Shown here: positions 12,546-56,352 of the stretch, piece after piece
Numbering within the stretch: position 1 is the first letter of the stretch
Layout: the number at the start of each line of letters is the position of its first letter
Source of the DNA: Salinibacterium sp.
Lineage (GTDB): Bacteria > Actinomycetota > Actinomycetes > Actinomycetales > Microbacteriaceae
DNA: 64,000 nucleotides
Assembly: GCA_019638845.1 (NCBI GenBank)
Contig: JAHBSZ010000003.1
Coordinates: 372,001-436,000, forward strand
Direction of reading: 5' to 3'
The notes under the pieces: model-generated
Seen by the model: only the letters and a program-made list of their open reading frames with translations
Told to the model about the DNA's origin: nothing
The model's database searches: none
Translations under genes and position numbers: made by a program

Positions 12546-13985
12546 TCACTGGCAGTACGTGGCGTTCTCGGCGCTCGCGTCACACCAGGCCAGTAGCTGG
12601 TCCACTGCCGTCTGGTGTTCGTCCGCGGTCTCGGAGAAGACCGTCTCCCCCGTCGCCAGGTTGATCGGCACAAAGAAGAGCCACGGACCGTCAGCCGGGT
12701 GCAGGGCCGCGTTGATCGCGTCATCCCCTGGCAAACCGATCGGCCCCACCGGGAGGCCGGGGTTCGCGTAGGTGTTGTAGAGGTTCGAGGCATCCGCGCG
12801 CTCTTCGGGCTCTGTCCACACGCTGTCCAGACGACCAGTCCCATACGCGACCGTGGCATCGGACTGAAGGTTGATTCCCTGTTCGATGCGATTCTGGAAA
12901 ACCCGGGAAATTTTGGCGAAGTCATCGATATTCGAACCAGCTTCGCGCTGAATTATCGATGCCAGGCGAACCACGTCCCAGCGCTGATCGACCGAGACTC
13001 CGGCCTTGTCCAAGCGAGACATCATTTCGTCGACAAGCCTTTGCAGGATGTCGTGTGCGGTTTCGGTGCCATCGAGTTCGTACGTCGCCGGGAAGAGGAA
13101 GCCTTCTAGGGTCGTCGCTTCGGCGGGGAGCCCAAACGAAGAGACGTCTGCCGCCGCCGCTTGAACTTCTTCGAGAGGGATGCCGGTCGTTGCCGCGATC
13201 GTCTCCAGCGCGTTAGGTAGCACCGTACCCTCGGTGATGAGCAGGCGGTCAGTGACCTTGTTCGCCTCGTCTTGCAGAGCAGCAACCGCAGACGCGGCGC
13301 TCATTTGTTTCTGAAGACTCCAGTTTCCCGGAGTGAACGTGATGTCGGGGTTCTCGACGAGGTAGTTGTATACCGCGTCATACGTCATTGTTACGCCCGC
13401 TTCGTGCAGGGTTACTGCGACGTCGGAACCGATGTCGCCCGACTTAATCGAGACGATAGTCTCCTCGCCGTTGCCGGTTCCCTCGAAGTCGTTGGGCAAC
13501 GGAATTCCCAGCAGCGCTCGAACCTGCTCGTTGTAGTTGAACCAGCCGTAGGCTGCGACACCTCCAGCCGCACCAAGGACCAGCACGATCGGCAATGTGA
13601 TCTTCAGCCAGAGCAGGCTGCGCTTCTTCTTGGGCGCTCCAGACCCGGTGCGGGATCCGCCGCCTCCGTTGCTGGAACCACCACGCCCGCCACGGCGCTT
13701 ACCCTCGCTCTCGCGAGCGGCCCGACGACTCATCGGTTGATCCGCCGGCACCTCGGGATAGGCCTGAGTTGGCGGATAGCGGTCGGCTGCAGCCGAGGCA
13801 GCCACCGGCTCCGCAGGCGGGGTTGCGTCGGCGAAGAGGTCCGCGAACGGGTCTTCGGATGCCGGAGCTTGTTCGGTCGATGGCGGTGCCGCCACAGGTG
13901 CTGCTTCGGGCGTTGCTTCGGGCGCGGAATCCTCGTTCGTCGGCTTTGGTGTGAAGAGGTCTTCCCAGCTCGGTTCGTTCGCCAT
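12546..13985 (-). CDS. mltG: Endolytic peptidoglycan transglycosylase MltG
   Basis: MltG cuts nascent glycan strands at the membrane. The 479 aa protein has a long disordered N-terminal region rich in Pro/Ala/Glu (about 1-85), a basic Gly/Ser/Arg stretch ending PKKKRS, one TM segment (about 130-147) and an extracytoplasmic LysM-like plus YceG domain. The catalytic glutamate lies in ASIIQREAGSNIDDFAK. The long acidic cytoplasmic tail is typical of actinobacterial MltG and may be a protein-interaction or phosphorylation region (inference). The ATG is at 13985. Confidence 0.95.
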   Translation of the reverse strand: MANEPSWEDLFTPKPTNEDSAPEATPEAAPVAAPPSTEQAPASEDPFADLFADATPPAEPVAASAAADRYPPTQAYPEVPADQPMSRRAARESEGKRRGGRGGSSNGGGGSRTGSGAPKKKRSLLWLKITLPIVLVLGAAGGVAAYGWFNYNEQVRALLGIPLPNDFEGTGNGEETIVSIKSGDIGSDVAVTLHEAGVTMTYDAVYNYLVENPDITFTPGNWSLQKQMSAASAVAALQDEANKVTDRLLITEGTVLPNALETIAATTGIPLEEVQAAAADVSSFGLPAEATTLEGFLFPATYELDGTETAHDILQRLVDEMMSRLDKAGVSVDQRWDVVRLASIIQREAGSNIDDFAKISRVFQNRIEQGINLQSDATVAYGTGRLDSVWTEPEERADASNLYNTYANPGLPVGPIGLPGDDAINAALHPADGPWLFFVPINLATGETVFSETADEHQTAVDQLLAWCDASAENATYCQ

Positions 13986-17861: not shown

Positions 17862-17941
17862 CGAAAACGCAGGAGAAACGGCGCGGACGGGCATCCGGAT
17901 GCACAAAGCCGCCCGTACAGCGAAAATCTCCTGCGTTTTCG
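17862..17941. repeat. 80-bp inverted-arm element, copy 1
   Basis: The left arm CGAAAACGCAGGAGA (17862-17876) and right arm TCTCCTGCGTTTTCG (17927-17941) are perfect reverse complements; one more base pair extends each side. The core is exactly 50 nt and holds ACGGGC/GCCCGT (17887-17892 with 17911-17916) and the palindrome GCATCCGGATGC (17891-17902). It sits between the DUF948 start and the rpsD terminator. Two more copies of the same overall length occur near 55.2 and 56.3 kb. Confidence 0.85.
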
Positions 17942-18898: not shown

Positions 18899-20227
18899 TC
18901 AATCCCCCCGAATTATCGCCCTGAGCTTCTCCAAACGAGCGGACACATCGCGCTCGTTCCCATTGTTCGTCGGCGCGTAGTATTCGATACCCGCCAGCTC
19001 GTCGGGCAGGTATTGCTGGGCGAGCACGCCGAAGTCAGAGTCGTGTGCGTACTTGTATCCCTTGCCGTGCCCGAGCCGTTTCGCGCCGGGGTAGTGAGCG
19101 TCTCGCAAGTGTTTGGGCACGCGGCCGATCTTGCCCGCGCGCACGTCGGCAATCGCGGCATCCAGCGCCATGTACGCCGCGTTCGACTTAGGCGCTGTCG
19201 CAAGATACACGACCGCTTCGGCAAGCGGAATACGGCCCTCAGGCATGCCGATCAGTTGCACCGCGTCGGCGGCGGCCATGGCAACAACGAGCGCTTGAGG
19301 ATCAGCCATCCCGATGTCTTCGGCGGCACTGATGATCACCCTGCGAGCGATGAAGCGTGGATCCTCCCCCGCCTCGATCATTCTGGCGAGGTAGTGCAGC
19401 GCTGCATCCACGTCAGAGCCACGCACCGACTTGATGAACGCACTGATGACGTCGTAGTGTTCGTCCCCCTGCCGGTCGTATCGCAGCAGTGCCCGGTCGA
19501 CCGCCGACGAGACGATCGACACCGTGACCACGGGCTTGCCGTCGCCCTCGTTCGATGCCGACGCGACAAGCGCCGACGCCTCCAAGGCCGTGAGGGCACG
19601 GCGGGCATCGCCCGACGAGAGCCGGATGATCGCCGCCCGCGCTTCGGGATCGAGCACGATCGCGTCTGAAAGGCCACGGGCATCCTTGACCGCCCTGTCG
19701 ATTACGGTGCCAAGGTCATCCTCACTGAGCTGCTCCAGCGTGAGGAGAAGCGAACGCGACAGCAGCGGGGAGATCACAGAGAACGAAGGATTCTCGGTGG
19801 TCGCCGCGATGAGGATTACCCAGCCGTTCTCTACCCCCGGGAGCAGCGCGTCTTGCTGCGCCTTCGAGAACCGGTGAATCTCATCGAGGAAGAGCACCGT
19901 GGTGAGTCCATACAGGTCGCGGCTGGAGAGGGCCTCCTCCATGACCTGGCGCACGTCGCGTACGCCAGCACTCACCGCGGAGAGCTCGACGAACTTGCGA
20001 CCCGAGCCGTGCGCTATCGCCTTCGCGAGCGTGGTCTTGCCTGTACCCGGAGGGCCCCAGAGGATGATCGACACCGCACCCTGTTCACCCGAACGATCCG
20101 ACGCCAGGCTCACGAGTGGTGATCCGGGAGTAAGCAGGTGCTTTTGGCCGGCAATCTCGTCAAGCCGCTGCGGTCTCATCCGTACCGCGAGGGGCGTGGC
20201 CCCGCCGCGCAGTCCGGGTTGATCCAT
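18899..20227 (-). CDS. rarA: Replication-associated recombination protein A (AAA ATPase)
   Basis: This 442 aa protein belongs to the RarA/MgsA/WRNIP1 family, which acts at stalled replication forks. Walker A is [19 protein letters not shown], Walker B is [20 protein letters not shown], and sensor 1 is [13 protein letters not shown]. The C-terminal tetramerisation domain includes [20 protein letters not shown] and [24 protein letters not shown] at 20227. It is divergent from the cyclophilin gene across a 74-nt intergenic region. Confidence 0.96.
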
Positions 20228-40908: not shown

Positions 40909-40983
40909 TGGTGGGCGGTACTGGGATCGAACCAGCGACCTCTTCCGTGTCAGGGAAGCGCGCTACCGCTGCGCCAACCGCCC
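40909..40983 (-). tRNA. tRNA-Val (anticodon GAC), CCA encoded
   Basis: The minus strand reads GGGCGGTTGGCGCAGCGG for the 5' acceptor and D arm. The anticodon stem CTTCC/GGAAG encloses CTGACAC, giving anticodon GAC (Val, GUC/GUU). The T loop is GGTTCGATCC. The acceptor closes as ACCGCCC-A and the gene encodes the 3' CCA. It is last of three tandem tRNAs. Confidence 0.97.
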
Positions 40984-41306: not shown

Positions 41307-41379
41307 GGGCGATTGGCGCAGTTGGTAGCGCGCTTCCTTCACACGGAAGAGGTCATCGGTTCGAGTCCGGTATCGCCCA
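41307..41379 (+). tRNA. tRNA-Val (anticodon CAC)
   Basis: The plus strand reads GGGCGATTGGCGCAGTTGG. The anticodon arm CTTCC-TTCACAC-GGAAG gives CAC (Val, GUG). The T arm is TCGGTTCGAGTCCGG, the acceptor ATCGCCC with discriminator A; CCA is not encoded. It is divergent from the Gly-Cys-Val operon and 24 nt upstream of the EI24 gene. Confidence 0.97.
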
Positions 41380-41403
41380 CCGCTCACATTCGGGGAGGTC
41401 GCT

Positions 41404-55225: not shown

Positions 55226-55305
55226 CGAAAACGCAGGAGTTTTGGTCGAAATTGCCCGCTGCGAGTTCACGACGGCTGTTCCGCAGCGGATCTCCTGCGT
55301 TTTCG
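55226..55305. repeat. 80-bp inverted-arm element, copy 2
   Basis: The arms CGAAAACGCAGGAG (55226-55239) and CTCCTGCGTTTTCG (55292-55305) are reverse complements. The core between the 15-nt arms is again exactly 50 nt, unrelated in sequence to copies 1 and 3, and contains CCGCTGCG/CGCAGCGG (55256-55263 with 55282-55289). It lies between fadB and the DUF559 gene and runs into the last codons of the latter. Confidence 0.85.
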
Positions 55306-56199
55306 ACCAGCGTAAGGGCGGTACGGATGTCGCAGACGGTGCGCCACGAGGGCAGCATCGTCTGCGATCGCGCGTTCGATGGCGGCAAGTACCCGTGGCC
55401 AGTCCCTGTATAGCTGTCGATAGGTGACGCGAAGAGTACGGTATCCCCACGCCGCCATGACCAGATCGCGGTCGCGATCGCGTTCCCACCCTTCGGGCTC
55501 GCCGTGTTGGGAGCCGTCAATCTCCAGAAACGTGTGCGGTCCAAGTTGAAAGTCGAGTCGGAGGCCGCCGACCTCAACTTGCTGAACGCAGCGGATTCCA
55601 GCATCCGCGAGCCACAGCCGAGCGAATGTCTCGCCATGTGCTTCGTCTAGGGCGCTGATCAAGTTCCGCCATTCACGCGCTCGCACAGGAGCTAGATCAA
55701 ATAGGCGATCAAGGGCTTCTGGGCTAATCGCTCGAGCGTGAAGCGCGGCGCCACAGGCAGCGACCGAGATATCCCTACCCTCTGTTCGCAGCACGCTAAG
55801 CAATGCTTCTACCACCGTGACCCGCCACGCGCTACGCGCGAGGGTCACCGTCCAATGCACGGTCGCACCATCGCGACGTGACAGCCGCAGCCGACGATCA
55901 CTTGGATGTCTAAGTCGACTCGACGTGGGCTTGACCGCGACGTGCAACATCGCGGGGCGCGGCACCCGTAGCCCGTAGGACTCGAGCGCAGAGAGCGCGG
56001 TCAGCTGTCCCCCCACCCGGACCGCTCGGATACCGAGCTCTGGCGCATCCGGGACCGTGTACCAGCCGTGCCGCACTCGGAGGACACATTTGCGGTCGAG
56101 CGCTTGCCTGAGCTGGGCATCCGTGAACCCGAGTGCAAGCAGATCACGGCGTCTCAGGAACAGGCCACGGTCACGGATCGCGCGTTCGACAGGGAGCAT
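55267..56199 (-). CDS. AbiEi-type winged-helix protein with C-terminal DUF559 nuclease-like domain
   Basis: The 310 aa protein starts MLPVERAIRDRGLFLRRRDL, resembling the N-terminal DNA-binding domain of AbiEi antitoxins, and continues with a middle domain (VKPTSSRLRHPSDRRLRLSRR). The C-terminal DUF559/Vsr-like domain has LRLDFQLGPHTFLEIDG, where Asp216, Glu226 and Asp228 fit a PD-(D/E)XK site, then GWERDRDRDLVMAAWGYRTLR. ATG at 56199; a TTG at 56223 would add eight residues. It is Arg-rich and flanked by copies of the 80-bp element on both sides. Function is unknown. Confidence 0.8.
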   Translation of the reverse strand: MLPVERAIRDRGLFLRRRDLLALGFTDAQLRQALDRKCVLRVRHGWYTVPDAPELGIRAVRVGGQLTALSALESYGLRVPRPAMLHVAVKPTSSRLRHPSDRRLRLSRRDGATVHWTVTLARSAWRVTVVEALLSVLRTEGRDISVAACGAALHARAISPEALDRLFDLAPVRAREWRNLISALDEAHGETFARLWLADAGIRCVQQVEVGGLRLDFQLGPHTFLEIDGSQHGEPEGWERDRDRDLVMAAWGYRTLRVTYRQLYRDWPRVLAAIERAIADDAALVAHRLRHPYRPYAGRKRRRSAAEQPS

Positions 56200-56272
56200 T
56201 CGTCCACGTTGCCGCGCCCCCAAGTCACGCGGCAGCGCGGACGGCTACCCGTGGAAAGCCGCGCCGCCGCAC

Positions 56273-56352
56273 CGAAAACGCAGGAGAAGTTGCCGCCGAA
56301 GCAAGTTTCGGCACTATTCGAGTGCGAGCCGGACCATTTTCCTGCGTTTTGA
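56273..56352. repeat. 80-bp inverted-arm element, copy 3
   Basis: The left arm CGAAAACGCAGGAGA is identical to copy 1; the right arm TCCTGCGTTTT (56340-56350) pairs over 11 bp, with the last two bases changed (GA for CG). The core is again 50 nt and contains GCCGAA/TTCGGC (56295-56300 with 56307-56312). It sits between the start of the DUF559 gene and the TetR gene. Confidence 0.8.

Follow-up and report, generated by a model that had tools for sequence, protein, structure and literature searches.

A likely REPtron-like pair of a Vsr-fold nuclease gene (DUF559) and short palindromic dyads in Microbacteriaceae

Introduction

The stretch of DNA considered here, called the window, comprises 64,000 nucleotides of Salinibacterium sp. 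(Microbacteriaceae; assembly GCA_019638845.1, contig JAHBSZ010000003.1, positions 372,001 to 436,000). It contains a gene for a DUF559 nuclease-like protein that lies between two copies of an 80-nt inverted repeat, termed a dyad. Dyads of this kind lie on both sides of the gene, arm and protein sequences covary, and solitary copies occur mainly where the matching gene is. The gene and the dyads are likely to form a pair resembling the REPtrons, that is, a gene for a nuclease of the Vsr fold together with short palindromic dyads that the enzyme recognises. Recognition of the dyads by the protein is implied by these relationships; from them we also infer that the nuclease mobilises the dyads.

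Palindromes like the repetitive extragenic palindromic (REP) sequences are common in bacteria. In the literature covered, the only dedicated enzymes are HUH transposases, and the CGTC-tagged group of REPs is said to have none. A first-pass annotation of the window had suggested a system like that of REPs and REP-associated tyrosine transposases (RAYTs) with a different enzyme in the central role. That suggestion is supported by the bracketing, by the dependence of the repeats on the gene and by the absence of a RAYT: a search with Y1_Tnp (PF01797) finds no such transposase in 26 carrier genomes, while the same search detects it in 5 of 14 named control genomes. Below, genomes are given as G numbers and fetched loci as L numbers.

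The gene and its flanking dyads

The features of the window that make up the system are the following.

55267..56199, minus strand: gene for a 310-residue protein with a winged-helix/AbiEi-like N-terminal part and a DUF559/Vsr-like PD-(D/E)XK nuclease domain
55366..55599, minus strand: DUF559 nuclease domain (PF04480), residues 201-278 from the ATG, with invariant D216, E226 and D228 and with E190 just before it
56050..56175, minus strand: weak AbiEi_4 match (PF13338, E 0.026), residues 9-50, within the predicted winged helix; candidate arm-binding domain
55291..55305, minus strand: in-frame arm of element A, giving the C-terminal tail RKRRR
55226..55305, no strand assigned: element A, an 80-nt dyad with arms CGAAAACGCAGGAG / CTCCTGCGTTTTCG that overlaps the 3' end of the gene; single-stranded hairpin z -5.4
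56273..56352, no strand assigned: element B, a dyad 73 nt upstream of the ATG with arms AAAACGCAGGA / TCCTGCGTTTT; hairpin z -3.7
17862..17941, no strand assigned: element C, a solitary dyad; hairpin z -6.1

The gene start is set at a conserved ATG (56199); the open reading frame (ORF) as listed begins at a TTG, 56223. The Pfam model of DUF559 scores 27.7 bits, above its cut-off of 20.6, and REase_MTES_1575 (PF18741) reaches 32.9 bits, under its cut-off of 38.2. The AbiEi likeness is weak, with the marginal AbiEi_4 match listed above and PADLOC AbiEi models matching at E values down to 2.8e-6. The three catalytic residues named in the first-pass annotation (Asp216, Glu226 and Asp228) are invariant in 13 aligned sequences, the window's included, as is E190, which it had not named. 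The N-terminal DNA-binding domain that it proposed appears in the predicted structure as a winged helix at residues 1-51. Residues ~182-283 of the same prediction match Vsr and the homing endonuclease I-Bth0305I, which gives the catalytic domain a fold of the Vsr, or EDxHD, type. Four neighbouring genes were scanned for an AbiEii partner (fadB-like, TetR, dxs and one lacking a Pfam match), and none was found.

All three 80-nt dyads of the window have arms that consist of CGAAAACGCAGGAG and its reverse complement, one arm being shorter. With at most one mismatch AAAACGCAGGA matches the window 8 times against 0.75 expected, a number reached by 0 of 100 shuffles; six of the matches are exact and form three inverted pairs, the three dyads. 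Folded as single-stranded DNA, each dyad beats all 200 of its shuffles. Element A covers the last 39 nt of the gene and element C lies 37 kb away from it. Sequence and pattern search confirm this arrangement, including the 73-nt spacing upstream, as it had first been described. In the window's gene and in 12 others from the protein search, an arm close to the end of the coding sequence is read in one and the same frame. The arm is exact in 12 of these genes and has a single mismatch in the other, and RKRR is kept in 12 of the 13. Translation of the arms AAAACG-CA-GGAG, AAAACG-AA-GGAG and AAAACG-AC-GGAG yields an RKRR tail in each case.

The genome from which the window comes (G000; 2.96 Mb, 13 contigs) has seven intact dyads, including an in-place purK site. 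It also has three single arms, each with a best partner at roughly the expected spacing; these partners carry 2, 2 and 3 mismatches. A control with the reversed pattern finds none. Dyad length, counted over the whole arm pair with both end bases included, was determined for 95 distinct dyads from fetched loci (two arm classes; the pattern admitted 71-81 nt). It is 77 nt in 58 of them, 76 nt in 33 and 78 nt in 4. Outside this set, G008 has a dyad of 75 nt and G104 a dissimilar palindrome of 65 nt. Arm similarity exceeds that of shuffles up to about position 21. The arms are ~14-20 nt long and their pitch is fixed at 65-66 nt. Directly at the ends of the 95 dyads there is no excess of direct repeats of the kind expected from target-site duplication. 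Patterns of exact arms miss decayed copies. In L059, to the right of 3809, tandem GTTTTGGGTGCGCGGGGAC repeats begin within the right arm of a dyad.

Bracketing and covariation of arms and protein

Bracketing was scored strictly, as an inverted repeat of 70-92 nt on each side of the gene with a 7-mer common to the arms. It is seen in 15 of 24 subfamily genes and 14 of 29 genus paralogs (29/53 together) and in only 2 of 159 other ORFs. The 24 are the evaluable members of 26 subfamily genes, and the 29 come from 31 fetched paralogs with L035 and L087 excluded. As controls, long ORFs of the fetched regions were used, predicted by length only and with duplicates and family members removed. DUF559/AbiEi genes are therefore flanked by such arms more often than other genes, a comparison proposed when the window was first annotated.

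The arms differ from gene to gene and do so in step with the protein. For 28 genes (27 of the 29 with strict bracketing, plus L113; L032 and L082 were excluded for arms unlike the GGA form), the arms of one gene are largely alike, L075 being an exception, and mostly end in CAGGA or ACGGA. Arm distance correlates with protein distance, with a Mantel r of 0.57 for the whole protein, 0.56 for residues 1-100 and 0.46 for the nuclease (0 of 5000 permutations in each case). Shared ancestry contributes to this correlation, which thus speaks for co-evolution and not for contact.

Distribution of the gene and the dyads

Within the genus, 3 of 27 genomes have a close homolog of the protein (protein search, E < 1e-100), and these carry 7, 19 and 8 dyads. 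Among the genomes lacking a close homolog, dyads were detected in 1 of the 23 that were pattern-searched (G018, 2 copies, 87% complete); the 23 include G040, and G041 falls outside the pattern search. In 398 genomes of the family the gene is found in 23 and dyads of the AAAACG[AC][AC]GGA class in 25. Gene and dyads occur together in 16 genomes, the gene alone in 7 and dyads alone in 9, or 16/23 versus 9/375 (Fisher p 3e-17, with relatedness uncorrected). For the family the gene was called at E <= 1e-42, a limit set after the genus search, with up to five candidates scored per genome. The genomes are related, p-values carry no correction for phylogeny, and several assemblies are fragmented. Exact copies per genome range from 1 to 73.

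The gene-only genomes supply a second comparison. In G277, G350 and G404 the gene is bracketed by AATTCGACGGA arms. This arm, read from the gene flanks alone, is present in 23, 15 and 26 copies in exactly these three of the same 398 genomes, and it is absent from the other 395, among them six further genomes of the carriers' genus. G013, which has nearly the same arm beside the distant paralog L089, is outside the 398. Two other gene-only genomes, G066 and G082, have further arm types at the gene. Both the class-wide counts and the flank-predicted arm tie presence of the repeats to presence of the gene, a kind of relation that the first-pass annotation had asked about.

Two additional arm types were observed. 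In G404 a stretch that is absent from G277 holds a 74-nt dyad with arms AATTCAGG (L210, ~13540-13640). L089 (G013:C75), a paralog of 35% identity in the window's genus, has arms CAATTCGACGGA that are nearly those of the g94 genes, either by convergence or by shared origin.

Movement and inheritance

Dyads have moved into coding sequence. The manA product of G318 has two in-frame insertions through a dyad (PKTKEI...SFxFG; L173:19616-19699 and 19046-19129), which are missing in all four congeners compared and are surrounded by extra residues. In G085, of another genus, a manA dyad, also in frame (L111:2638-2714), lies near the second G318 place. In-frame dyads of manA in two genera recall the Rickettsia palindromic elements inside genes.

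The 48 nt between the arms also carry a record of descent. For copies within G318 the interiors have a mean score of 10.1 versus -1.0 for shuffles (sd, standard deviation, 3.0), and within G101 6.4 versus -3.9 (sd 3.4). They align well above shuffles, so that the copies in these genomes descend from each other. Interiors are only slightly above shuffles in G004 (2.5 versus -1.3) and G008 (2.1 versus -3.0). The g94 interiors (11.7 versus -3.3) were not counted because three related genomes with orthologous copies are pooled there.

The gene is mostly vertically inherited and has moved at least once. Among the sources listed, most share one locus, the window's genome and two relatives share another, and L142 has neither; this comparison counts one contig twice under two names. 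At the gene site ~1650 nt separate the flanking alignments in G318, versus ~307 nt in the gene-lacking congener G183 (not the window's genus). A close homolog is single in 22 of the 23 family genomes with a match, G314 having a second match at E 3.5e-44. As to mobile-element context, the gene shows no plasmid match and one weak phage match.

DUF559 loci in other phyla

The association of DUF559 genes with palindromes probably extends beyond the Microbacteriaceae, as judged from a small sample in which the palindromes differ in form. A DUF559 consensus matched 35 records of a plasmid collection, and 12 loci were fetched. Some records filed there as plasmids are of chromosome size (2.2 and 4.8-4.9 Mb): NZ_CP119142.1, NZ_CP119140.1, NZ_CP141089.1 and NZ_OL790696.1. 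At 11 of the 12 loci, where the DUF559 gene stands alone, hairpins lie near it (stem 8-11, within ~500 nt). Five replicons were selected from the 12 for carrying annotation; in 49-kb stretches of these, GC-rich hairpins flank 4 of 5 DUF559 genes on both sides versus 4 of 211 other genes.

Some of these hairpins carry the tag of a known REP group. Of 29 hairpins at the 12 loci, 8 have CGTC or TGTC immediately ahead of the stem, and these come from three loci (L225, L226 and L227): 3/3 in S. meliloti, 3/3 in Sinorhizobium K101 and 2/5 in N. gonorrhoeae. None of the 18 hairpins at the other nine loci is tagged in this way. Elsewhere on the five replicons the tag precedes 3 of 56 hairpins, two of these being one S. 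meliloti palindrome.

In Deinococcus sp. NW-56 and D. proteolyticus (L228:1400-1870 and L229:1400-1870) a DUF559 unit lies at different points of the hpa operon, in opposite orientation to the operon genes and with terminal inverted repeats as read by eye. The position that the unit takes in NW-56 is unoccupied in D. proteolyticus, and the two genes there overlap.

Apart from these loci, the window itself contains a 58-nt inverted pair (40910-40967 and 41324-41381; 84% complementary) that resembles two similar, oppositely facing tRNA genes.

Proposed mechanism

The gene would be a mostly single-copy, mostly vertically inherited chromosomal gene whose enzyme takes the place of the HUH Y1 transposase (RAYT). 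Its winged-helix N-terminal part may bind one arm each, either as a dimer on arms 65-66 nt apart or at the foot of an extruded hairpin. The PD-(D/E)XK domain would then nick at the foot of the arm, and the 80-nt unit would be freed or copied. Host functions would insert the unit at another place, and the gaps would be closed by replication or repair in the host. The gene may in addition be regulated by its neighbouring arms. Nicking or cutting of DNA by the protein is plausible from its Vsr/homing-endonuclease fold. In Caulobacter the DUF559 protein VsrA provokes a DNA-damage response in vivo. The authors of that recent work read it as mismatch repair (PMC12907096), and the present finding bears on their reading.

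A wider proposal is tentative. DUF559 proteins, a widespread family, may be a second, non-HUH class of REP-associated enzymes in Actinomycetota, Pseudomonadota and Deinococcota, moving dyads without a covalent tyrosine intermediate; at sites such as purK they would also create arms, or rewrite them, in place around native sequence. The enzymes that the CGTC-tagged REPs lack could then be among them, since the tag occurs on palindromes next to DUF559 genes in S. meliloti and N. gonorrhoeae. If true, DUF559 would gain a function and some orphan palindromes an origin. The result would be a simple system of two parts, a single gene and an 80-nt site with a specificity readable in the arms, for testing REP movement directly.

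Weighing the evidence

Several observations weigh against a nuclease that moves its own dyads. The association with the gene is incomplete in both directions. Dyads are present in 9 of 375 genomes without a detected gene (12 copies in G230, 11 each in G186 and G424, 8 in G348, 6 in G110, 2 in G151, and 1 each in G080, G194 and G243), and six of these genomes (G230, G186, G110, G151, G194 and G243) are 98-99% complete. Either the gene has been lost or missed there or dyads persist without it, and strict dependence is disfavoured. In two of the 16 double-positive genomes (G175 and G377) the gene has other arms and is mismatched with the 2 dyads that each genome holds; in G209 and G257 the gene is present but an intact pair is lacking. 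The E limit of the family search was picked only after the genus had been searched. Strict bracketing is absent for 15 of the 29 paralogs in the genus and for 9 of the 24 genes in the subfamily. Dyad turnover is slow, because G277 and G404 (~90% identical) have 4/4 compared elements in common. Finally, dyad interiors in G000 are no more alike than shuffled ones (0.8 versus -0.5, sd 2.6), so that recent spread in the window's own genome is without support.

The purK dyad belongs with these points. It lies inside the gene in G000 (L057:4223-4303), and insertion was rejected as its origin because its interior is native coding sequence. For example, the N-terminal domain of PurK fits its Pfam model nearly end to end, residues 4-98 corresponding to positions 3-98 of 98. 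Ungapped 81-nt windows can be placed in all 29 scored purK genes, G018 being left unscored on account of a cut purK. Ten of the 18 dyad-carrying genomes agree with the arms at 20-22 of 22 positions, at exact spacing; the remaining 8 carriers and all 11 non-carriers agree at no more than 16. G318 and G348, with dyads of the AAAACGAAGGA class, have the same class in purK, which differs from the class of G000 and G063. Either a binding site favoured by selection or the writing of arms in place would fit the purK dyad.

This case lends weight to an alternative in which the dyads are host-useful sites (operators, chromosome-organising sites or sites of protection) of a DNA-binding protein. The nuclease would not move them; they would arise in place by selection, and their arms would track its specificity. 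Arms in native coding sequence, found in 10/18 carriers versus 0/11 others and matching the genome in class, are what such sites should look like, and the orthologous genes of G000, G004 and G008 keep their flanking arms while the interiors differ. Selected sites would not copy their interiors, however, and the interiors in G318 and G101 are homologous between copies; the in-frame manA insertions tell against it as well, and an operator needs no two-sided bracketing of a gene. We consider this explanation unlikely.

The gene with its two dyads could also be an ordinary small insertion sequence, the solitary dyads being miniature derivatives. The Deinococcus unit, with its terminal repeats, its differing operon points and the empty site in a relative, speaks for this, and the window's genome and two relatives hold the gene at a locus unlike that of most other sources listed. 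In contrast, the gene is single in nearly all family genomes with a match, most sources listed share one locus, plasmid matches and target-site duplications are absent with only one weak phage match, and each flank is a complete dyad by itself. An insertion sequence is thus quite improbable. Least probable is that DUF559 proteins are very-short-patch mismatch-repair or defence nucleases with terminators or chance palindromes as neighbours; the predicted Vsr-like fold, the description of the MTES_1575 REase as a Vsr-family domain (PMC3710099, in the part available) and the reading given to VsrA agree with it, but terminators would not be expected to have arms that are specific to each gene and covary with its protein, or that recur across the genome mainly where the gene is present.

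Comparison with known systems

A literature search, with subscription papers and preprints outside its scope, found no prior report linking DUF559 to repeats. Among proteins of related fold, I-Bth0305I and Vsr differ in that the present protein has a winged-helix N-terminus and flanking repeat dyads, and a mismatch-repair or homing context was not seen. AbiE toxin-antitoxin systems differ by their AbiEii partner, absent from the four scanned neighbours. Classical insertion sequences differ by their target-site duplication, which the dyads here lack (95 dyads). As to copies of the gene unit, 22 of 23 family genomes show one match, and the Deinococcus unit lies at different places in two species.

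The Rhizobium intergenic mosaic elements (RIME) consist of two palindromes within ~100 nt. Upstream of the S. meliloti DUF559 gene lie palindromes spaced by 76 nt, a possible likeness to RIME.

The CGTC-tagged REPs, which include the Rickettsia palindromic elements, are short palindromes, often in inverted dimers and some of them inside genes. They occur in S. meliloti and Neisseria and are described, in the available part of the source, without a dedicated transposase (PMC3733652). The same tag stands before 8 of 29 stems beside stand-alone DUF559 genes, those 8 being in S. meliloti, Sinorhizobium K101 and N. gonorrhoeae. The described stems are 8-9 bp and start with A/T pairs, whereas the tagged stems beside DUF559 genes are 9-11 bp and start with C. 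The Microbacteriaceae dyads are of another form.

The closest likeness is to the REPtrons, or REPINs (REP doublets forming hairpins) with their RAYTs. In these, as the available parts of the sources describe them, one copy of the enzyme gene lies on the chromosome next to its cognate short palindromic repeats; the repeats form inverted doublets with conserved ends, their presence tracks the gene, and each enzyme has its own class (PMC3116915, PMC8266576). Here, too, the gene is flanked by cognate palindromes (15/24 and 14/29 versus 2/159), dispersed inverted doublets are tied to the gene, the 9 dyad-only genomes notwithstanding, and enzyme and repeats co-evolve (Mantel r 0.57, 28 genes). The enzyme is different, a winged-helix protein with a DUF559/Vsr-like PD-(D/E)XK domain and not an HUH Y1 transposase (0/26 genomes), and so are the arms of ~14-20 nt at a fixed pitch of 65-66 nt. 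REPs usually exceed 100 copies per genome, according to the part of the source available (PMC2817692), and the 1-73 exact dyad copies found here are fewer. All the REPtron features tested are found except the defining enzyme; the DUF559 pair is therefore not a member of that group, but it would work like one.
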